64,000 nt of DNA from a virus: the IMG/VR virus record IMGVR_UViG_3300033545_000002, positions 22,052 through 86,051 of that record; one strand, 5' to 3'. Position numbers and translations under genes: made by a program. Below are positions 48,958 to 58,197 of the stretch, one piece after another (within the stretch, counting starts at the first letter, position 1; each line of letters starts with the position of its first letter). Below the pieces are notes generated by a model. The model made no database searches. It saw only the letters and a program-made list of their open reading frames with translations, and was not told the DNA's origin.

Positions 48958-49410
48958 TTAAGTTGTTTCCTCTACGTAAGTACCTTCCATAGCCATATCT
49001 CCTAATATTGTTGCCTGCCAAGCATATAAATGTGTCAAGAATACAACCTCACCTTCTTTTATAGTAAAAAGAAGAATCATTCTATGAACTCCAGGGTAAG
49101 CTCTTGGTGGATCAACGCTTATAAACCAAATAGGTTCCGGATCAATAGCGTGTCGTTCTTTTCTGAATTTGGTAATTTTATAGTAGGCAAAACACTCTTT
49201 TATAAATTCAATAATAAAATGACAATCTTTGCAACAGGTGGCGAGATCATCATCTGGAACATCCCAAGGCTCTTTATAATAGGCATCATGATGAACATGA
49301 AGTGTTTTTTTAGTATCCCCACAATATTTACAAGCAAACCCATCTCTTTCTAAAATTTTAAGCCTCTTTTTTTGCCACCTTGGGTCGAGTAGTTTTTCTG
49401 AGTAAGTCAT
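48958..49410 (-). CDS. HNH endonuclease-like protein
   Basis: A 150-residue protein with the phage HNH pattern: DPRWQKKRLKILERDGFACKYCG, TLHVHHDAYY, and CCKDCHFI, giving Cys pairs and the His-His motif. May be a packaging-type HNH, a homing nuclease or a restriction-like enzyme. It follows the ncRNA candidate, which lies upstream of its start. Confidence 0.75.
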   Translation of the reverse strand: MTYSEKLLDPRWQKKRLKILERDGFACKYCGDTKKTLHVHHDAYYKEPWDVPDDDLATCCKDCHFIIEFIKECFAYYKITKFRKERHAIDPEPIWFISVDPPRAYPGVHRMILLFTIKEGEVVFLTHLYAWQATILGDMAMEGTYVEETT

Positions 49411-49436
49411 AAGCGATAAATTAAAAAGGGTAGGTA

Positions 49437-49630
49437 TAGAAACAAAAGTCCCCCGCTGGTCGACGGGGGAGCTTAAGTTTCTCGGGCTTTTACCTCCGAT
49501 ATTCTTTAAAGACCTTCGTATTCCGACCAGAAAATACTTCGGTTAAATATTATGTATAGTTATGATTTAACATTGTGCGGTAACTTTTAAGAGGAATCAA
49601 ATTGGAGACTAAGATAGTGAAATGTTTTTT
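49437..49630 (-). ncRNA. Candidate structured RNA with kissing loops
   Basis: The 239-base gap holds several pairings on the minus strand: GTTAAAT/ATTTAAC (49571-49542), GTATT/AATAC (49537-49518) with a loop carrying CUGGUCG, a 10-base palindrome (49512-49503), UCGG/CCGA (49499-49482) and a strong CCCCCG/CGGGGG hairpin (49469-49450). The last hairpin's loop (CGACCAG) is perfectly complementary, seven bases, to the CUGGUCG loop, a kissing interaction. A U-rich end follows the strong hairpin. No ORF over 30 codons was found in it. Confidence 0.55.
49450..49469 (-). terminator. Strong hairpin at the end of the candidate RNA
   Basis: CCCCCG (49469-49464 on the minus strand) pairs with CGGGGG (49455-49450), loop TCGACCAG, followed by ACTTTTGTTT. 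It could end the upstream transcript or be part of the RNA fold. The U-run is interrupted, so termination may be partial. Confidence 0.55.
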
Positions 49631-49637
49631 GATTCAC

Positions 49638-49645
49638 CAAAATTA
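49638..49645 (-). promoter_or_regulatory. -7 box for the candidate RNA/HNH transcript
   Basis: TAATTTTG on the minus strand (49645-49638) is a perfect TAnnTTTG. A TTG lies about 17 bases upstream (within the end of the 74-residue gene). It would start transcription near 49630, giving the candidate RNA its own promoter. Confidence 0.5.
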
Positions 49646-49649
49646 TTTT

Positions 49650-49874
49650 CTACCAATTCTGCCAAGGGGCCTTTGCACCTATTTCCAAAATACCTGATTT
49701 GTCTTTACGTGCGTAGAAGAAAGCCTTCGGAGCGCCGTTCATTATTTTCCTGACGGCATATGGAGCATCTGCTTCATATCGGATGGATCGGTCTTTGTTA
49801 TAAATAAGACACTTGGAGCCGACATAAAATCCTGGAATATTTGATTCAAGTCCCAACTGAACTTTTACAATCAT
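49650..49874 (-). CDS. Hypothetical protein (74 aa)
   Basis: A small beta-rich basic protein with no recognised family, nine bases after the helicase-methyltransferase gene ends. Its 3' end holds the -7 box of the ncRNA region. Confidence 0.55.
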   Translation of the reverse strand: MIVKVQLGLESNIPGFYVGSKCLIYNKDRSIRYEADAPYAVRKIMNGAPKAFFYARKDKSGILEIGAKAPWQNW

Positions 49875-49883
49875 AAATTTATT

Positions 49884-52058
49884 TTACTTGAATAGTAATT
49901 GCTGCCTGTTTCCTTGTTCAGCAGCGCGACAATTTCTGATAGCAAGGTCGAAATAGCTTTTCTTCAATTCAAAACCAATTCCATTTCGTCCCATTTTGAT
50001 AGCCTGAAATACTTCGCTTCCAATGCCCATAAAAGGCGTCAGGATCGTATCTCCTTTGTTTGACCATAAGGTAATCGTTCGTTCGATTGTCTGTAACTGA
50101 AGCGGCGCAATATGTTTCTCGTCGGCTTCCCCACGGCCTTCTCTCCCATTCAACGTATCGCCGTAGTCAATGTCCATCCACACAGGGGATGCGTATTGTT
50201 GCCATGTATCGACGGATATTTCACATTTCACCGGATGTTCGTGTTCACCTGGTTTTCTGAACACCAGTAAGTAGTCTGGTATTCCGACCCGGCTCATGGC
50301 AGCATCTTTTTTAACCTGCTTATGAAGTAATCCTAATGCTTTAGTCCGCTGCATCTCCGTGACTGGATTTTTCCAAATTGTCACTCTGGAATGATAAATA
50401 AATCCAACATCTTCGAATGACTGTCGGATCATATTTGAAAAATCACGCAATCCAATATACCCTTCTTTACCTTTTTGGATGGGCAAATCCATACAATGAA
50501 CAACTACATTCCGGCCGGACCACATGATCCTATGAAGTTCTTTTGCCAAAAAATTGAAAGCTATGAAAAACTCTTTGTAGTCTTTGCTATTACCCATATC
50601 TTCCAATTCGTCACTGTAAACATATAATTCAGAAAACGGGGGAGAAAATATTGACAGACCAATGCTTTCGTCAGGAATATTTTTAATCAACTGAACACAA
50701 TCGCCCAATTGTATTTTAAAGTTATTGCCGATTTCCTCCTGAAATTGTCGTTCCATTTTTTCTTTTGATTTTAATTTTCGGTTGACGGCTTTAGTCATTT
50801 CCTCTTGCATTTGCTCGAATTGTCGCTCCTTTTCTCTCAATATCCGACCAACGTTTTGCATGGTATCGGTAGTGACTAGATAGACATTCACCTGATCTTT
50901 TTGGCCAAAGCGCCAAGATCGACGAATGGATTGGAATACTGCCTCAAATGAGAAGTCGGGGGCAGCGAATATTTGGTTATGGCAATTTTGAAAATTAAGC
51001 CCGGCTCCGGCGATTTTGCTCTTAGTGAGTAGCACCCGTATCTTTCCAAGTGCAAAATCGGATAACTTTTCTTCCTTCCACTCTACAGTGTCACTACCAC
51101 GAACCTCAACTGCATCAGGAATTAGGCGTTTCAATTCATCGCCTTCCTCATTCTGCTTTATCCAAATCAAAAAAGTTTCATCTGATCCGTTGACAATATC
51201 AGCAACTTTAGAAAGTCTTTTATCCTTAGTCCTGCGTAATTCTTGATTAAATGATGTTGCCGAAACCGCTGAATCATTGAACAACATCCCGTTATCCTTT
51301 TTGTCAGTTTCGATTTGAAGTTCGATGAAATTTAATGGTGGCAAATCATACCCGGATTGCTCAAACCCAATGTCAGAAGGCTTTTGGAACATAATGGCCC
51401 ACGTACTTACCCATTCCCAAAACACACGATTGCTATGGCCTTTTAGCCGCCATTTATTCGTTTCGCCGCCGTCATGGACAAAATACATAGCCAGCATTTC
51501 CGAACGCGGCATTACATCTAAAAACTCGCTGTAATTGCCAATCTCCATCGGGCTGTTCGGCGAAGGAGTGGCCGACCATACGGATTTATACGGAGTTCTT
51601 TTGAATAAGTCAATAATTTGATTCCGATAAGCCCCTTCATGGTTTTTGAGTATGCTGCCCTCATCTAATACAATGCCAGAAAATTCAGGAATCCAATCAA
51701 CGATGTTATCCAATTGGTCATAGTTGATAATGTATATTCCCATCTTTGGCGGTCGTGTTAACTTTTCTACGGGAATATGGATGTTCTTACCTTCTGTAAT
51801 TGTTTGAGAAGAAACTGCCAACGGAGCCATGATTAGGACAGGAGCATTCGTATGGTCAACAACCGCCTGTGCCCACCTTAACTGCATTCTGCTTTTCCCC
51901 GTTCCTGTCCCGCTGAACACTCCGTATTTCCCGGCAGACAAAGACTTATTAACAATAAAATTCTGGAAAGGAAACAAAAATGAACTATTGATATTGGCCT
52001 CAAACCCGCTATGAATATGCTCTTTTCGTTTTGTTTCCAGGAACTGTTCGTAGGTCAC
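49884..52058 (-). CDS. Fused SNF2-type helicase and DNA methyltransferase
   Basis: A 724-residue fusion with a GTG start that overlaps the preceding stop (GTGA). N-terminal helicase: Walker A FSGTGTGKSRM (50-56 core), DEAD-like LDEG (131-134), motif VI QSIRRSWRFGQKDQV near 390. C-terminal methyltransferase: FSPPF near 480, PFMGIGSE at 675-682, giving the beta-class N6-adenine/N4-cytosine order (IV before I). The protein ends RQQLLFK, a clamp-binding-like QxxLF. May modify phage DNA against restriction, with helicase-driven access; unlike typical stand-alone methyltransferases. Confidence 0.82.
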   Translation of the reverse strand: MTYEQFLETKRKEHIHSGFEANINSSFLFPFQNFIVNKSLSAGKYGVFSGTGTGKSRMQLRWAQAVVDHTNAPVLIMAPLAVSSQTITEGKNIHIPVEKLTRPPKMGIYIINYDQLDNIVDWIPEFSGIVLDEGSILKNHEGAYRNQIIDLFKRTPYKSVWSATPSPNSPMEIGNYSEFLDVMPRSEMLAMYFVHDGGETNKWRLKGHSNRVFWEWVSTWAIMFQKPSDIGFEQSGYDLPPLNFIELQIETDKKDNGMLFNDSAVSATSFNQELRRTKDKRLSKVADIVNGSDETFLIWIKQNEEGDELKRLIPDAVEVRGSDTVEWKEEKLSDFALGKIRVLLTKSKIAGAGLNFQNCHNQIFAAPDFSFEAVFQSIRRSWRFGQKDQVNVYLVTTDTMQNVGRILREKERQFEQMQEEMTKAVNRKLKSKEKMERQFQEEIGNNFKIQLGDCVQLIKNIPDESIGLSIFSPPFSELYVYSDELEDMGNSKDYKEFFIAFNFLAKELHRIMWSGRNVVVHCMDLPIQKGKEGYIGLRDFSNMIRQSFEDVGFIYHSRVTIWKNPVTEMQRTKALGLLHKQVKKDAAMSRVGIPDYLLVFRKPGEHEHPVKCEISVDTWQQYASPVWMDIDYGDTLNGREGRGEADEKHIAPLQLQTIERTITLWSNKGDTILTPFMGIGSEVFQAIKMGRNGIGFELKKSYFDLAIRNCRAAEQGNRQQLLFK

Positions 52059-52312
52059 TGTACGAGTATTTTTATGTAGTCAGGATGCTTGTGGACGGCT
52101 TGCTTTGACCAATCACCTCTTGCTGGCCGACGTTCAATTATCATCTTCAATGATCCATACCATCCCGGAAACTTATCACCTATTTTCATTTGGTAATCTT
52201 TTGGAACGATTAGTTTATAAACACCGTCCTTAGTGTAAGGAGGATATTGAAAACAATGTGGGATAGGTGTCTGACCACCTGGCGGTATATTGATAGGAAT
52301 TTCGTGTATCAT
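52055..52312 (-). CDS. Hypothetical protein (85 aa)
   Basis: A small basic protein, overlapping both neighbours by 4 bases (GTGA and ATGA), hence translationally coupled between the SLOG protein and the helicase-methyltransferase. No family recognised. Confidence 0.6.
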   Translation of the reverse strand: MIHEIPINIPPGGQTPIPHCFQYPPYTKDGVYKLIVPKDYQMKIGDKFPGWYGSLKMIIERRPARGDWSKQAVHKHPDYIKILVQ

Positions 52313-52737
52313 ATTTTTACAATTTTCATTTTCTTTGTTCTGTCTTTAAACTTTTTAATGGTGTCATGGGTTCCGGGGCTGGAGTAATCCCAAAACGAGA
52401 TGCCTTCATCGGCGAAGTCTGCAATCTTTGTGTTTCGATTAGGCCCGGCAAGAGCGTTATATTCCCCGTATTGACCCATGCGCCTCAAACAAGGTTCGGC
52501 CATATCTTTCCAATCAGCCTGGAACCCTTTGTATGGAATGCCTTTTTCTTTGGCGTAGTCTCTGGCAATGGCGTCCACTCCCCTTGCTTTTTCATCGTCA
52601 ATTGCCACACCGGAAACAATCATTTCAACTTTATGGATTTTCCTAAACTCATCCAATTCAAAATATACTCGCTTTTTGTTACTATACGTACGGGTGCCGA
52701 CAACAGCTAATTTTATAGGTTTCCCAATCGTTTGCAT
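52309..52737 (-). CDS. SLOG-family (DprA/YspA-like) protein
   Basis: From the ATG at 52737 (MQTIGKPIKLAV), 142 residues. Core KLAVVGTRTYSNKKRV near 9-24, then IVSGVA and GVDAIARDYAKEKGIPYKGF, a Rossmann-like SLOG/DUF2493 pattern, and a C-terminal GPNRNTKIADFADEG. Such proteins bind nucleotides or ADP-ribose-like ligands. The longer frame to 52788 would use GTG and overlap the clamp gene more. Role unknown. Confidence 0.78.
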   Translation of the reverse strand: MQTIGKPIKLAVVGTRTYSNKKRVYFELDEFRKIHKVEMIVSGVAIDDEKARGVDAIARDYAKEKGIPYKGFQADWKDMAEPCLRRMGQYGEYNALAGPNRNTKIADFADEGISFWDYSSPGTHDTIKKFKDRTKKMKIVKI

Positions 52738-52738
52738 T

Positions 52739-53743
52739 CTACTCTGTTTGCGTGTGAAGTTGCATGATGAGTGTGGTAAACTTTTCACCGGGAGTTTTGA
52801 CCCAGTAAAAGTTTTGTCCTTTGAAAAAATGAATGTCCTCCGCGTCGATGGCCATTAGCAATCGGTTCATGTGTTCCGCATTGTAGGTGAAAGGGGCGGA
52901 CGGTGTTAGTTTTTCTATGTTTTGCTCCAAGCTAATGTCCATGTTTTTGTCGTTCATAAACATTTTGCCTTCCTGCAAAGTAACGAAGGGGATCTTGCTG
53001 GATTGGGCGCACTCCGAATTGAATTGCTGCATGTCGCTGGCGGAAATATTAAATTCCTCTTTGTCACTTGTTATCTTCCCGTAATTGATAACGTTGATGT
53101 ATTTTATCTCTTGTTTTGCAAACCCGATAACCCCATTGTCGGTGTAGAAAAACATATAATTATCGGAATATGCGTATTCTTTAATGGAAAGTTTTGAAAT
53201 GACTTGTGCATGTCTGTTATCCAGTACAATCTCAAATTCTTCGTCAACCGGCTCTGAAAAAAAAATGATTCCATTCGATGCACAAATATGCCCATTACCT
53301 ACCATAATGAACGACATCCAGGAAGTGTTAGTTTCGTCAATTTTCAGTGGGAAATACTGCGCCCGATCCAACACTTTCATAAAGTTTTCAGAGATGGGGA
53401 ACCGCTCACTGGTCGGTTCGGGAATCATTGGGAACCCAACCAAATCCGGTACTTGAAACGTTATGGGTATTTTCGTGTCGGTGATTGTCACTTTGTTCCC
53501 TTTTTGCGTGATGTTTAAAAAGTCGGTAGCTTCGTTGCTTAACTTGACGCCCAACAATTTTTCATCCACCAATATCGGCTTGTCAATACCAGAGCATTCA
53601 AATTGGACGAAAGAGGTTAGGACACTTTTTGTTGCCTTCCCATTCTCCAATTTGATGTACTCTAAAATCGGTAGAATGTTGTGCCCTTTGATGTGGGACG
53701 CCATTTTTTGAAAGGCTCTAAGCCCCGTTACAGAAATATTCAT
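52739..53743 (-). CDS. Beta-clamp-like protein (DnaN-like)
   Basis: A 334-residue protein with the domain pattern of a sliding clamp: SVTGLRAFQKMASHI, NILPILEYIKLENG and a C-terminal AEHMNRLLMAI...TTLIMQL, typical of the third clamp domain. Length is slightly below bacterial DnaN (about 370). Expected to tether replication proteins to DNA. A phage DNA polymerase is not in the window. Adjacent genes end in QxxLF motifs. Confidence 0.72.
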   Translation of the reverse strand: MNISVTGLRAFQKMASHIKGHNILPILEYIKLENGKATKSVLTSFVQFECSGIDKPILVDEKLLGVKLSNEATDFLNITQKGNKVTITDTKIPITFQVPDLVGFPMIPEPTSERFPISENFMKVLDRAQYFPLKIDETNTSWMSFIMVGNGHICASNGIIFFSEPVDEEFEIVLDNRHAQVISKLSIKEYAYSDNYMFFYTDNGVIGFAKQEIKYINVINYGKITSDKEEFNISASDMQQFNSECAQSSKIPFVTLQEGKMFMNDKNMDISLEQNIEKLTPSAPFTYNAEHMNRLLMAIDAEDIHFFKGQNFYWVKTPGEKFTTLIMQLHTQTE

Positions 53744-53753
53744 TTATTGTTTT

Positions 53754-54122
53754 TTAGAAAAGTTTTTCTTGCCGGTCTGTTTTAATCGCCGCCTCCGCCT
53801 TCTTAATAATTTTGGCTTGCTTGTCAGTTTTGGGCGGCGGCAATTCTCCGATTTGGGATTTGATATACTCGCGCATACGCTCCATTCCATCTTTATTTTC
53901 GTCTGTCTTATTCAATCGGTATCGGAAATAATATCCAGGCTTCTCATCGTATATTGACTTAAACTCTTTCTTGTCTTTGCTAATAATCACACCGAACTTT
54001 TGCTCAATTGATCTGGACAGCTCTCTGCTTAGATTAGTACAGTGGAATTTATGAAAGCCATCCGCTATCGTCATAGTGTCTCCATTCAACAAGGCAATCG
54101 CTATTGCGCATATTTGTGTCAT
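53754..54122 (-). CDS. Small protein ending in clamp-binding-like QEKLF
   Basis: A 122-residue protein with a helical, Lys-rich C-terminus that ends exactly in QEKLF (118-122). The clamp gene follows directly (10-base gap). The terminal motif suggests it docks to the clamp; its catalytic or regulatory function is not known. First gene of the minus transcript from the divergent gap. Confidence 0.6.
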   Translation of the reverse strand: MTQICAIAIALLNGDTMTIADGFHKFHCTNLSRELSRSIEQKFGVIISKDKKEFKSIYDEKPGYYFRYRLNKTDENKDGMERMREYIKSQIGELPPPKTDKQAKIIKKAEAAIKTDRQEKLF

Positions 54123-54190
54123 GGGTGTGAAGGTAGAAATATATTTTTAATTTCCAATTAATTTATTTTACTTTACATAAAATTACTTTA
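54123..54190. promoter_or_regulatory. Divergent promoter region
   Basis: A 68-base AT-rich gap between the minus-strand 122-residue gene and the plus-strand RHH gene. Candidate -7 boxes, each one base off TAnnTTTG, are TATATTTC on the minus strand (54143-54136) and TATATTTT on the plus strand (54140-54147). No clear -33 elements. Confidence 0.4.
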
Positions 54191-54346
54191 ATGGCAGATA
54201 CGAAACAAATAAGCGCGACCATTGACGGAGATTTAGCAGAATGGGTGGCTACTGAGGCAAAGGCAGATCGGCGCACGTTTAGTGAAATGGTGGGTATTTT
54301 ATTGGAGGAGGCAAAAGCTAAACGGGAAAAATTAGTGAAGAAATGA
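54191..54346 (+). CDS. Ribbon-helix-helix protein (51 aa)
   Basis: A short frame starting MADTKQISATIDGDLAEW: a beta-strand (QISATID) then helices, the Arc/RHH pattern, with LLEEAKAKREKLVKK at the end. Its stop overlaps the next ATG (ATGA). First gene of the plus-strand accessory operon, so it may regulate that operon or the divergent genes. Confidence 0.7.
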   Translation: MADTKQISATIDGDLAEWVATEAKADRRTFSEMVGILLEEAKAKREKLVKK

Positions 54347-55092
54347 AAACGCCTCCTAAACATTGGCAAAACACCAGCTTGCAGCACATTCCCGGCGAAC
54401 GATGGACAGACTGCATATTCATAGACACTAATGGGAAAAGTTACGATTACGGTGACTTATATAAGGTTTCAACGATGGGGCGAGTGAAGAATACTCCGCA
54501 TTTGCATAAAATCAGAAAGGATTGTACTATCCCGGTCAAAGAAAGAATAATGAGGCCAGACAATTTAAATGGGACTGATTATTTGAGAGTTAGGCTCACT
54601 AAAAATGGTAAAAGCAGCGCGCTCTTGGTACATAGACTCGTTATGCTTTGCTTTACAGAAAAAATACCGGGGAAAGACAAGGTTAACCATAAAAAGGGTG
54701 TCAAGTGGGATAATAGGCTAAAAATGCTAGAATGGTCCGATCATCCTGAGAATATTCAACACGCATATGACACCGGATTGCATCATGGCAGGCCGGGCGA
54801 AGAAAGCGCGATGGCTAAAATTGACAACAAAACAGCATTGTTGATATTCGATTCTGCTGGTACGCAACATGAGATAGCCATAAAGTTCAATGTCAGTCGT
54901 AGTGTAGTATGCGCCATTAAAAGAGGGGCAACTTGGGGAAAAATAACTAATAAACAACTAGTTAAGGAAAGATTCCCACTATCTACAAGTGATATTTTGG
55001 CTATAAGATTATCTAATAAATTAGCCACGGATTTAGCCAAACAGTATAAAAAATCGGTCAAGTTAATAAGATTGATAAGAAATGCCGTATAA
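54343..55092 (+). CDS. NUMOD4-HNH-type endonuclease
   Basis: A 249-residue protein: a NUMOD4-like start (ERWTDCIF...YKVSTMGRVKN), an HNH segment (LLVHRLVMLCF...KDKVNHKKGVKWDNRLKMLEW) and an HTH-like end (TQHEIAIKFNVSRSVVCAIKRG). Similar proteins are often free-standing homing endonucleases. Overlaps RHH by 4 bases and NinG by 11. Confidence 0.82.
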   Translation: MKTPPKHWQNTSLQHIPGERWTDCIFIDTNGKSYDYGDLYKVSTMGRVKNTPHLHKIRKDCTIPVKERIMRPDNLNGTDYLRVRLTKNGKSSALLVHRLVMLCFTEKIPGKDKVNHKKGVKWDNRLKMLEWSDHPENIQHAYDTGLHHGRPGEESAMAKIDNKTALLIFDSAGTQHEIAIKFNVSRSVVCAIKRGATWGKITNKQLVKERFPLSTSDILAIRLSNKLATDLAKQYKKSVKLIRLIRNAV

Positions 55093-55624
55093 TTCAACGA
55101 TACGATCGAAAGTTGGGCAATGCAGTTTTGCTGGGTGCAATTATTACGGCCCGTTAACAAAACAATTATGTAACCAGCATTACTGGTTTCGGCTTAGAAT
55201 GAAGTCGGCCGAAAAGTTTGTAGAGCGAGAGATAAAGGAGGATGGGCTACAGGATTTAATTACCGATCTTGACGTGCTTGTTAGTCGGTGGGTAAGGTAC
55301 AGCGCCGTAGGGCCGGGCAATCTTGTTCAATGCTATACCTGTTCTAATAAATTTCCGCCGTCTGATATTGATGCGGGACATTATATAAGTCGGGGATGTA
55401 TGCTTTTGCGGTTCGATGTAGACCGAAATATAAGGCCCCAATGCCAGATTTGCAACCGAACTAAGTACGGGAAGGCGGCTATTTTTGGTCAGAACCTTGA
55501 AAAAGAAAGGCCCGGAATAACCGAAATCCTGTACGAAGAAAGCAAATTAGTTTACAAATGGAGCAGGGAAGAATTGCGCGGCCTAATTGCGGAATTTACC
55601 CAAAAACTAAAAAACCTTAAATAA
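55082..55624 (+). CDS. NinG-like recombination protein
   Basis: A 180-residue NinG/Rap-like protein. It has an N-terminal CSFAGC zinc-like pair and the conserved DAGHYISRGCMLLRFDVDRNIRPQCQICN segment, here near residues 97-125. NinG family proteins act in phage recombination and contain an HNH-type metal site. Overlaps the NUMOD4-HNH gene by 11 bases. Confidence 0.8.
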   Translation: MPYNSTIRSKVGQCSFAGCNYYGPLTKQLCNQHYWFRLRMKSAEKFVEREIKEDGLQDLITDLDVLVSRWVRYSAVGPGNLVQCYTCSNKFPPSDIDAGHYISRGCMLLRFDVDRNIRPQCQICNRTKYGKAAIFGQNLEKERPGITEILYEESKLVYKWSREELRGLIAEFTQKLKNLK

Positions 55625-55635
55625 ACTCACCACCC

Positions 55636-55953
55636 ATGACTTCTCAGGATATAGAAAGAGGGAATCGGCTAATCGCGGAATTTGATGGTGTGAAGCTCGG
55701 TGAGGACAAATATTCCTGGCGTCCGGGATGTACAGAACCATTGCAGGTACATCATCTAAATTATCATAAAGAATGGGGATGGCTGATGCCGGCGGCTAAA
55801 AAAATCCTTGGATTAACGCCGATACAAGGAAAAGCCATGCAGCATATTCTCCAAATGGAAGTAGTGGTCAGCGCCTTAATGGTTGCCGATATAGATAAAC
55901 TTTACGCCGCCGTCCTACAATTTCTCGAATGGTACAATAGTCAATCATGCTGA
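55636..55953 (+). CDS. Hypothetical protein (105 aa)
   Basis: A helical protein starting ERGNRLIAEFDGVKLGEDKYSWRPG, a pattern recurring in Bacteroidota phages (as I remember it). Contains KEWGWLMPAAKKILGL. Overlaps the next gene by 7 bases. Function unknown. Confidence 0.6.
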   Translation: MTSQDIERGNRLIAEFDGVKLGEDKYSWRPGCTEPLQVHHLNYHKEWGWLMPAAKKILGLTPIQGKAMQHILQMEVVVSALMVADIDKLYAAVLQFLEWYNSQSC

Positions 55954-56204
55954 AGGTTTGTGAACATAAATGCGATCAATGTCTTTTCTCGGCGAATAGA
56001 ATAGTATCTAAGGCGCGGATGGCTGGCATTATCCGGAACTGCCTGAAGAAAGATATTCATTTCGAATGCCACAAAGGAACGATTTCGGGAACGCCAATAG
56101 TATGTCGTGGATTTTTCGATCAGTATCCTACCCAGATGATCCGTATCGCAGAAAGACTTAACGTCGTACAATTTGTAAATCCAGATAATTTAGTCAACAA
56201 GTAA
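55947..56204 (+). CDS. Small CxxC protein (85 aa)
   Basis: Contains CDQCLFSANRIVSKARM, then HFECHKG and VVC-type cysteines, a zinc-binding-like set. RIAERLNVVQFVNPDN lies near the end. Recurrent small phage family by my recognition. Function unknown. Confidence 0.6.
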   Translation: MLKVCEHKCDQCLFSANRIVSKARMAGIIRNCLKKDIHFECHKGTISGTPIVCRGFFDQYPTQMIRIAERLNVVQFVNPDNLVNK

Positions 56205-56217
56205 ACAGGAAAAGTAT

Positions 56218-56472
56218 ATGACAAAGAAAGCGACAACCAAGCAAATCACCGTCAAGGTGAATGAAGAAAACCCGGAGCCATTGGAAATTTTGGCGAAGGC
56301 TATTATCGACGTGTCGGATGGGTTTGAAAAGATCAACAAGTCCAAAATGACGCGGAAGGCCATTGTTCTTTTGTTGCAGGCGGCGATTGGAGGAAGCCTG
56401 ATCACGCAGCAGCAAATAAACGACGTTCTGGATTACGGTCCCAAATTGAAAACCCTTTATACAAAGCCATGA
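56218..56472 (+). CDS. Hypothetical protein (84 aa)
   Basis: A basic N-terminus then a helical region; the final bases overlap the next start by 4 bases (ATGA). No family recognised. Confidence 0.55.
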   Translation: MTKKATTKQITVKVNEENPEPLEILAKAIIDVSDGFEKINKSKMTRKAIVLLLQAAIGGSLITQQQINDVLDYGPKLKTLYTKP

Positions 56473-56819
56473 CCCCTACACTACCACAGGCAGAGATAGA
56501 CCGGATCGCGGCGGACGCTAATTCAAAATGGCCGCTTGATGAAAACGATCCGCCAACTAAATATACTTCGAGCCGAAATGCACTGATGCTGGATTTTCGG
56601 TCAGCATTCATCGCCGGAGCCCAGGCGGAAGTAGTTAGAGGAAGGGAACAGGAACGGACGCGGTTCATTGAGTTTCTGCAATGGCTATCTGCGGAGAAAG
56701 CGGAATATTCGATTTTGTACGGAGGCGATCCGGAACGGTTTTGTTCCATAGACCACGATTATACCAGCGAACAAATTGCTGACCTCTATATTTTGGAAAC
56801 GCTAAAAAGGAAAGGATGA
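56469..56819 (+). CDS. Hypothetical protein (116 aa)
   Basis: A helical, charged protein with RSAFIAGAQAEVVRGREQE near residues 44-62. Coupled on both sides by 4-base overlaps. No family recognised. Confidence 0.55.
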   Translation: MTPTLPQAEIDRIAADANSKWPLDENDPPTKYTSSRNALMLDFRSAFIAGAQAEVVRGREQERTRFIEFLQWLSAEKAEYSILYGGDPERFCSIDHDYTSEQIADLYILETLKRKG

Positions 56820-57127
56820 CAGACAGACAACTTATCGACGAATTGGAAAAGTGGAGACCACAATACGATTTCAATTTCCAGCTATGGAGCGAAGACCGCG
56901 TAAACTGCTCCATCTGCAAAGGCGACATTAGAATTGCCGAGTTTAATCAGTGCGAAACGATTAGGGAGGGTTTTGAGAAATGTATCGGATGGATAAAGGC
57001 CCAGAACCCAAAAGGCGTCGTCTACCCGGAGGCCATCGGAAGCCGTTGCGTAATCTGCGGGTCTAAAATCGCTATTGGAAATGATATTTGCGGTGAATGC
57101 GCTTGTGAAGATGATTGCAGCGCGTAA
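56816..57127 (+). CDS. Small zinc-ribbon protein (103 aa)
   Basis: Several Cys pairs (CSIC, CVIC, CGECAC) in the second half suggest zinc binding. Overlaps the preceding gene by 4 bases. Function unknown. Confidence 0.6.
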   Translation: MTDRQLIDELEKWRPQYDFNFQLWSEDRVNCSICKGDIRIAEFNQCETIREGFEKCIGWIKAQNPKGVVYPEAIGSRCVICGSKIAIGNDICGECACEDDCSA

Positions 57128-57150
57128 CCCCCTCTCATCGTCCCTATAAC

Positions 57151-57180
57151 AGAGTAACTTATAAAACGTAAGGAATATGA
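57151..57180 (+). repeat. Leader repeat, copy 1
   Basis: AGAGTAACTTATAAAACGTAAGGAATATGA, including the Shine-Dalgarno-like AAGGA and the start of the next gene. A near-copy lies at 58803-58833 before another gene. Confidence 0.6.
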
Positions 57181-57455
57181 GTAATAAAATTGAGATAACC
57201 GAACGTCAGGCGCAGCAGTTCAACCGGATGCTTTCGCAACTCCGGAAAATAGCCAGAGACTACATGACGCCAGCGCAAATGCAGCGCGGACATGATCTAG
57301 GACGAGGTATGGGGCCGTCTTATGAGGAAGAATTGGAGATGGCCTATGAAAATATTCAGCAAGAGGCCGTGCATGGCGCTAATGGCGTCAGCTCCATTAA
57401 AATAGCAAATCCTTCACCTTTAACCCCCTCCCAGAAGCATGGAAAGCAAAGATGA
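57177..57455 (+). CDS. Hypothetical protein (92 aa)
   Basis: A helical Gln/Arg-rich protein (TERQAQQFNRMLSQLRKIAR). Overlaps the next gene by 17 bases. No family recognised. Confidence 0.55.
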   Translation: MSNKIEITERQAQQFNRMLSQLRKIARDYMTPAQMQRGHDLGRGMGPSYEEELEMAYENIQQEAVHGANGVSSIKIANPSPLTPSQKHGKQR

Positions 57456-57654
57456 GAAGAAGTCAGCGTCCCCCGTATCCCGATCCGTCTATCAAAAGTT
57501 AGCGGAAGAAAACAAAAGGCTGAAAGCGGATATATACGTGCTTGCGATGGGCGGGGCGGCAGATTTCGCCGAAGTTATTACGCGCTGGAAAAAGCATTTC
57601 TATCAGAAAAAGGCAATCGACGAGGCCATGCGAGAACTTTTTAAAAAAAGATAA
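57439..57654 (+). CDS. Hypothetical protein (71 aa)
   Basis: A charged helical protein with ADFAEVITRWKKHFYQKKA. Follows directly in the accessory operon. No family recognised. Confidence 0.55.
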   Translation: MESKDEKKSASPVSRSVYQKLAEENKRLKADIYVLAMGGAADFAEVITRWKKHFYQKKAIDEAMRELFKKR

Positions 57655-57655
57655 C

Positions 57656-57715
57656 ATGAGTAACAAACTACAGCAATGGGAGTACAGGGCGATAAAATAT
57701 TTATTATGGAACTAA
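57656..57715 (+). pseudogene. Possible truncated gene remnant before AP2-HNH
   Basis: A 19-codon frame (MSNKLQQWEYRAIKY...) that stops at 57715, just after the AP2-HNH start at 57706. The start resembles DUF4177-type proteins (WEYR.). It could be a gene interrupted by insertion of the endonuclease gene. Too short to prove. Confidence 0.3.
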
Positions 57716-58197
57716 CGATTCATTCAAAAAAATACGGCAATCACACTGTCGCCTTCGATGAGGCGGATAGGCCGATAATTGATTCATATACATGGAGTTT
57801 ATTCAAGCCGAAGGATCGTAATAAGTTTTACGCTGTAACCTGCGTTAGCAAACGAATTATATTGATGCACAGGCTGTTGGTTAAGTCTGATTTGCAAATT
57901 GATCACATCGATGGTAATGGGCTAAACAACCAAAGGAACAATTTGCGGCCTGCGTCTAATTCCCAAAATGCAATGAACAAGGGAGGGGGTAATGGCACGT
58001 CCTCCGGCTTTAAGGGTGTCTCTTGGCATAAGAAAGCCGGGAAATGGTTGGTCCAAATAATTCACAATGGTATTTGGATAAATGGCGGATTTTTTGAATC
58101 CAAAATCGAAGCGGCTGAACGATACAATGAATTGGCTATTGAATACCACGGCGAATTTGCCAAATTAAATGAAATTCCTAAAACTCAACCCCAATGA
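57706..58197 (+). CDS. AP2-HNH homing-type endonuclease
   Basis: From the ATG at 57706, 163 residues; a longer start at 57676 adds ten residues of poor fit. The HNH part is MHRLLVKSDLQIDHIDGNGLNNQRNNLR and the AP2-like DNA-binding part SSGFKGVSWHKKAGKWLVQI, followed by AAERYNELAIEYHGEFAKLN. Often a mobile gene. Overlaps the following gene by 4 bases. Confidence 0.85.
   Translation: MELTIHSKKYGNHTVAFDEADRPIIDSYTWSLFKPKDRNKFYAVTCVSKRIILMHRLLVKSDLQIDHIDGNGLNNQRNNLRPASNSQNAMNKGGGNGTSSGFKGVSWHKKAGKWLVQIIHNGIWINGGFFESKIEAAERYNELAIEYHGEFAKLNEIPKTQPQ

Follow-up and report, generated by a model that had tools for sequence, protein, structure and literature searches.

Loop-loop pairing combined with a terminator is known from pT181-type antisense attenuators, in which both occur in the leader of a replication gene and the pairing partner is a separate antisense RNA. 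In the phage leader described here, by contrast, both kissing loops are located in one and the same leader. Another loop contact is known from the Pistol ribozyme, in which a hairpin loop pairs into the internal region of the following helix; the topologies of the Pistol and HDV-like ribozymes were considered for our RNA and dropped, since the strand order differs and an Rfam match is absent.

Several phage RNAs share part of the layout. The put RNA of HK022, a cis-acting antitermination RNA, is a nascent phage transcript that folds into two hairpins behind an early promoter and is present in two copies per genome (PMC9378689). The kissing-loop leader resembles put as a nascent two-hairpin RNA of a phage; however, put stabilises elongation past downstream terminators, whereas the second hairpin of the leader itself carries a U-run directly before the gene. 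Furthermore, the loops pair with each other in the leader, whereas the paper on put mentions neither kissing nor a pseudoknot (PMC9378689). In the leader of T4 gene 32, too, a tertiary structure precedes a U/A-rich start region (PMC3014915), but this leader serves a single gene whose protein ligand is known, is built as an H-type pseudoknot and has no U-run terminator, whereas our leader consists of two kissing hairpins; in the window, unlike in the gene 32 operator, an HNH gene and not one for a single-strand binding protein is located downstream. IsrK of prophage Gifsy-1 likewise has a promoter, an intrinsically terminated short RNA and readthrough into a phage gene (PMC4825925), yet the host group is a different one and IsrK is not known to have a kissing-loop architecture. 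AbiF/RCd22 and the type III toxin-antitoxin RNAs also combine a structured RNA and a terminator upstream of a protein gene that is co-transcribed by readthrough, but these RNAs bind and inhibit the downstream toxin and carry motif repeats (PMC12373285). In contrast, the genes downstream of kissing-loop leaders are mutually unrelated, and the gap in the window has no such repeats and is followed by an HNH gene, which sets it apart from a type III system. A guide-RNA or HEARO/IscB reading, prompted by the HNH gene, was rejected on two grounds: many unrelated genes are preceded by this kind of RNA, and the HNH protein matches the HNH-endonuclease type only.

A search with all 4227 families of Rfam 15 gave no match above the gathering threshold in the window, and permissive Rfam scans, run on the gap in the window, on 14 HNH loci and on 11 loci of typical members, returned only weak unrelated matches far below threshold. 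We found no published description of the kissing-loop leader in the open-access literature, so one may exist undetected. The parts are known separately, as cis-acting phage RNAs, leader pseudoknots and attenuators, and it is their combination as a recurrent phage leader that seems to be new.

The window analysed here comprises 64,000 nucleotides and is part of an 86-kb viral record (IMG/VR IMGVR_UViG_3300033545_000002). On its minus strand, the region 49411-49649 contains, in this order, a TAnnTTTG box, a hairpin termed P1, a GC-rich terminator-like hairpin termed P2 and a U-rich tail, followed by the HNH gene (Table 1). An earlier note on this DNA had described several hairpins in a gap lacking a coding frame, with a strong GC-rich hairpin at the end, two fully complementary loops and a perfect TAnnTTTG box just upstream. 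All these features could be located: P1 and P2 were found in the gap, their loops L1 and L2 are exact 7-nt complements on the minus strand, the box is a perfect match, and the gap contains no minus-strand ORF of at least 20 amino acids. The predicted energies are -7.0 kcal/mol for P1, -16.3 kcal/mol for P2 and -10.4 kcal/mol for the L1:L2 duplex. TAnnTTTG is the -7 element of the primary sigma factor of Bacteroidota (PMC7366714), a phylum that we infer for the host of the window phage. A TTG is found 17 nt upstream of the box (49665-49663), and the 5' part of the leader contains the inverted repeat GTTAAAT/ATTTAAC. The sequence after P2 reads CUUUUGUUUC, a U-run as in the leader class described below; the ATG of the HNH gene follows 38 nt 3' of the P2 core, within the 60 nt used for the class. 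Similar gaps of other phages, described below, keep the box, both hairpins and the loop complementarity, and in nearly all of them the element immediately precedes a start codon and has a terminator-like hairpin and a U-run at its 3' end; it is therefore most likely both a leader and, if terminated, a short RNA. This supports the earlier proposal, in which the gap encodes an independently transcribed phage RNA or serves the HNH gene as a structured leader.

Table 1. Features of the window copy and neighbouring genes, and loop pairs of isolated phages.
Feature	Position	Strand	Remarks
Putative promoter box TAATTTTG	49638-49645	-	perfect TAnnTTTG match
Leader 5' part	49544-49637	-	sequence from box to P1
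Hairpin P1, ACC GAA GUAUUUU[CUGGUCG]GAAUAC GAA GGU	49512-49543	-	symmetric GAA/GAA internal loop
Loop L1, CUGGUCG	49524-49530	-	kissing partner A
Terminator-like hairpin P2	49438-49482	-	outer helix AGAAAC/GUUUCU
P2 core UCCCCCG/CGGGGGA	49449-49470	-	
Loop L2, CGACCAG	49456-49462	-	kissing partner A'; adjoins 3' strand of P2
U-rich tail CUUUUGUUUCU	49438-49448	-	after P2 core; terminator-like
HNH endonuclease, 150 aa, DPRWQKKRLKILERD family	48958-49410	-	downstream gene
74-aa protein, no family assigned	49650-49874	-	upstream gene; 3' end overlaps promoter region
DNA helicase-methyltransferase fusion (SNF2-like helicase and N6/N4 DNA methyltransferase)	49884-52058	-	
Replication-initiation-like protein and primase-helicase	around 49.5 kb	-	
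Loops of FCV-3			GTAGAGAG/CTCTCTAC
Loops of lillamy9-1			GTGAGACG/CGTCTCAC
Loops of morran9-1			GTGAGAAG/CTTCTCAC
Loops of mumin and snusmum			GTGGAACG/CGTTCCAC
Loops of Cellulophaga phi10:1 and phi19:1			GTACGAC/GTCGTAC; before genes leading into primase

This layout is found again, ahead of early genes and with different but matching loops, in many viral contigs as well as in named phages of Flavobacterium and Cellulophaga. The order is TAnnTTTG, P1 within about 25 nt, an A-rich linker of about 15-40 nt, P2, a U-run and the ATG, and the loop region of P2 is complementary to the P1 loop over 6-9 nt. The class was discovered by collecting relatives of the HNH protein and inspecting the gaps before their genes. 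Several of these gaps have a strong hairpin or pseudoknot beside the ATG, and two loci (L021 and L027) carry kissing loops. In a pseudoknot-score test, the HNH gaps came out ahead of the controls, but many control gaps scored too; since the controls were also enriched, the search was widened to the general class.

Three scans were made that condition on separate features but draw on the same sequence set. A descriptor blind to promoter and gene position was run on both strands of 2.87 Mb and gave 38 distinct matches at a score of at least 50, compared to 1.83 in shuffled sequences. TAnnTTTG is located within 60 nt upstream in 28 of them (shuffles 0; background 60-mers 3.4%), and the ATG of an ORF within 60 nt downstream in 34. 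With the conditions for U-run and gene switched off, a promoter-anchored scan (score at least 44) yielded 40 matches versus 2.0 in shuffled sequences. Its distinct matches number 33, and all except one have at least five T in the 8 nt after P2, a feature found at -18 to -11 of only 7% of ordinary genes; an ATG follows 6-48 nt downstream in 30. In the third scan, 71 elements were picked by box, P1 and terminator while kissing was ignored. An L1:L2 match of at least 7 nt was present in 23, whereas permutation of L1 gave a mean of 0.65 and a maximum of 4 (500 permutations). Tenacibaculum phage JQ and the first 50 kb of crAss001 contained no descriptor match in the version that excludes hairpins shorter than 25 nt. 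The descriptor also did not match Cellulophaga phi10:1, in which the element is present by eye (Table 1). We are almost certain that the kissing-loop leader class is a real RNA; its structure is well supported, and its function is proposed from the sequence.

Comparison of isolates of Ficleduovirus, Lillamyvirus and Muminvirus, which carry the element at the same genomic place, revealed how the loops vary among Flavobacterium phages (Table 1). In the resulting alignment, 97.9% of the cells of the kissing helix are paired and five of its eight pairs have changed on both sides, as have seven of the 11 pairs of the P2 helix; when the partner was slid by one to three columns as a control, pairing was at most 42.5%. 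The covariation at the loop positions that the earlier note had proposed to look for is thus seen as compensatory changes of the kissing helix in same-type gaps of other phages. In addition, IMG/VR was searched with the conserved P2 bases alone, leaving the loop out, and nearly all matches with a U-run tail had a complementary P1 loop. The loops found in this way were GTAGAGG, GTAGCAG, GTAGCGG, GTAGGAG, GTGCAT, GCGCAT, TGTGCCC and TGTGCGC, and their partners match with one near-miss (L209). Matches without a complementary loop lacked the box and the U-run too and resemble chance matches in coding DNA. In a second alignment, the kissing helix was 100% paired, with two pairs changed on both sides.

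The compensatory loop changes argue against an element acting at the DNA level, such as a replication origin or inverted repeats bound by a protein next to the replication genes. The gap does adjoin replication genes and contains inverted repeats, one of them AT-rich. However, the pairing order A-B-A'-B' is unlike that of a DNA cruciform, the elements are oriented with respect to the strand, with the promoter ahead and the U-run behind, and one phage can carry several of them; moreover, no abrupt change in GC skew is seen at 49.5 kb. A DNA element is therefore very improbable.

Two variants were observed among the members. At L209:4829-4975, the P1 loop TGTGCGC faces the P2 loop GGGCACA with one mismatch, while relatives pair TGTGCCC or TGTGCGC; the mismatch is possibly an intermediate of a loop switch. 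The subfamily of L200, L205 and L215 (alignment A6) has an extra hairpin with a GCCGAAAGGC tetraloop in the interval between box and P1, a pair of which is compensated in relatives.

The window copy is a real feature, but by itself it exceeds chance only weakly and is not striking for 64 kb. When the gap was shuffled 4000 times with its dinucleotides preserved, 21 shuffles gave two hairpins with a 7-nt loop match, and a scan of the whole window in 240-nt steps found one further 7-nt loop pair on each strand. TAnnTTTG sites are not over-represented in the window (46 observed, 60 expected), and the overall fold stability of the gap is unremarkable (z = -1.97, minus strand). The window alone cannot decide, and the support for its copy comes from the comparison with related phages. 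A direct homolog of this copy was not among the sequences searched: blastn of the gap against phages gave none, the covariance-model search suggested by the earlier note, run with a single-sequence model of the window copy on 90 related loci (0.8 Mb), returned zero homologs, and searches with terminase, replication initiator and primase identified no close relative of the window phage.

The window copy also departs from the norm of the class. The distance between its box and P1, about 95-100 nt, is outside the spacing of the class (2-24 nt elsewhere), and its P1-P2 linker is 47 nt long compared to mostly 13-38 nt in other members. It has no GGA/GAA inner loop, its U-run is weaker than the norm, and in a separate pseudoknot-score test it reached p = 0.087. 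These atypical distances, the loop pairs in gap shuffles and elsewhere in the window, and the expectation that about 1.8 of the 38 matches at a score of at least 50 are due to chance would fit another explanation for this copy, namely that it lies outside the class and combines a promoter with a common terminator or hairpin, the loops being complementary by chance. We give this a low probability. With a descriptor score of 50.5, the copy is the sole match of at least 50 in the window and the remainder of the record, and its gap is non-coding, with the element on the coding strand and a perfect box ahead of it. Furthermore, relatives from the family of the downstream gene also bear such leaders (L021/L148, L027/L159, L061). 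Thus, the window copy very probably belongs to the kissing-loop leader class, an assignment based on architecture, not on sequence homology.

As to function, we give about an even chance to the reading that the window gap provides the HNH gene with a structured 5' leader that acts as a transcription attenuator and yields in addition a short terminated RNA. RNA polymerase would start at the TAnnTTTG promoter and make P1 first, then the linker and then P2, the loop of which would kiss the P1 loop in the nascent leader. P2 and the U-run would form an intrinsic terminator inside the leader, usually 6-20 nt upstream of the start codon. There, most transcripts would end, giving compact RNAs some 80-110 nt long, or about 190 nt for the window copy, and the downstream gene would be expressed only by readthrough. 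The rate of termination would be set or sensed by the kissing complex of P1 and P2. The anatomy is that of an attenuator, as a signal recognisable by its sequence as an intrinsic terminator sits between promoter and start codon. The comparisons support the box, both hairpins, the kissing, the U-run and the place before the ATG; termination, an effect of kissing on termination and regulation by a phage or host factor are what we infer. Since P1 would dock at the moment when P2 and the U-run emerge from the polymerase, the kissing seems to be placed to alter termination. The strict U-run argues for a terminator and the fixed closeness to the ATG for a leader function. We identified no alternative antiterminator hairpin, and, as A' is located outside the P2 stem, kissing and P2 appear to be compatible and not exclusive, in which the leader differs from a classical two-state attenuator.

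Of the 8 nt after P2, 78% are T; in the sequence ahead of ordinary genes of these loci, T accounts for 27% and A for 46%. Such a composition points to the U-run of a terminator and not to a generic start region, although the U-run could also serve as the U/A-rich ribosome-binding region of Bacteroidota. It therefore weighs against a translational operator, in which the kissing structure would nucleate a phage single-strand/RNA-binding protein whose spread over the U/A-rich start would block ribosomes, in the way that gp32 of T4 acts on the leader of its own gene. The operator of T4 gene 32 shares the succession of leader tertiary structure, unstructured U/A-rich stretch and start codon (PMC3014915), and replication-type genes are frequent downstream of the leaders; however, single-strand binding proteins are not among the regulated genes seen, and we consider this reading unlikely.

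It might also be possible, though we think it quite unlikely, that the terminated leader is the main product and acts in trans as an independent small RNA with both ends paired, the downstream gene being incidental. The element has a promoter and a terminator of its own, and IsrK of Gifsy-1 offers a phage precedent, as this sRNA is ended by intrinsic termination and readthrough turns it into an mRNA (PMC4825925). Against this, a start codon on the same strand is almost always 6-23 nt away, although its position was not used in the search, and the loops differ among relatives, so that a constant exposed seed is missing.

A further reading concerns the loops. As L1 and L2 are complementary within one leader, a terminated leader from one phage could also kiss the nascent P2 of another copy of the element, and the loops might then serve as a trans-acting specificity code between phages, an idea that we hold to be doubtful. 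If it were true, loop differences among close relatives would decide on the mutual silencing of phages, similar to antisense-RNA plasmid incompatibility and the RNA immunity of the P4/P1 type. In the lillamy/mumin pair, 4 of 16 kissing positions differ, compared to 6 of 80 positions elsewhere; these few comparisons fit a fast divergence of the loops.

The leader class is a recurrent covarying RNA next to genes of replication type in phages of the Bacteroidota type, among them isolates from Flavobacterium and Cellulophaga, and it provides a handle on the timing of gene expression in little-studied phages. An intrinsic terminator coupled to a loop-loop contact in one nascent RNA would be a test case for the influence of tertiary structure on termination, and the class can be tested directly in existing phage-host pairs.

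Many of the genes downstream of other members are of replication type (helicase-methyltransferase, primase, replication initiation). Relatives of the helicase-methyltransferase encoded next to the window copy, up to 67% identical, occur in many viral contigs, and several carry a kissing-loop leader on this gene. HNH endonuclease-type genes crowd the replication region of the window (48958-58197), with two assigned by PHROGs (48958-49410 and 57676-58197) and two seen by eye (at 54343 and 55082). In diverse viral contigs, HNH genes of the WQKKRLK family often have a strong H-type pseudoknot with a 5' strand of 8-13 nt abutting the ATG (L144, L136, L143, L132, L152 and L153). One of these loci, L144, has a sigma-70-like promoter and lacks the U-run, and may represent a related device outside Bacteroidota. 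To the left of the window in the same record (G000), an IS200/IS605-type TnpA-like ORF lies beside a second ORF (L121:171-590 and 649-1356). By eye, this second ORF starts with an HNH domain and ends with a TnpB-like tail, and it is possibly a recombined transposon gene.
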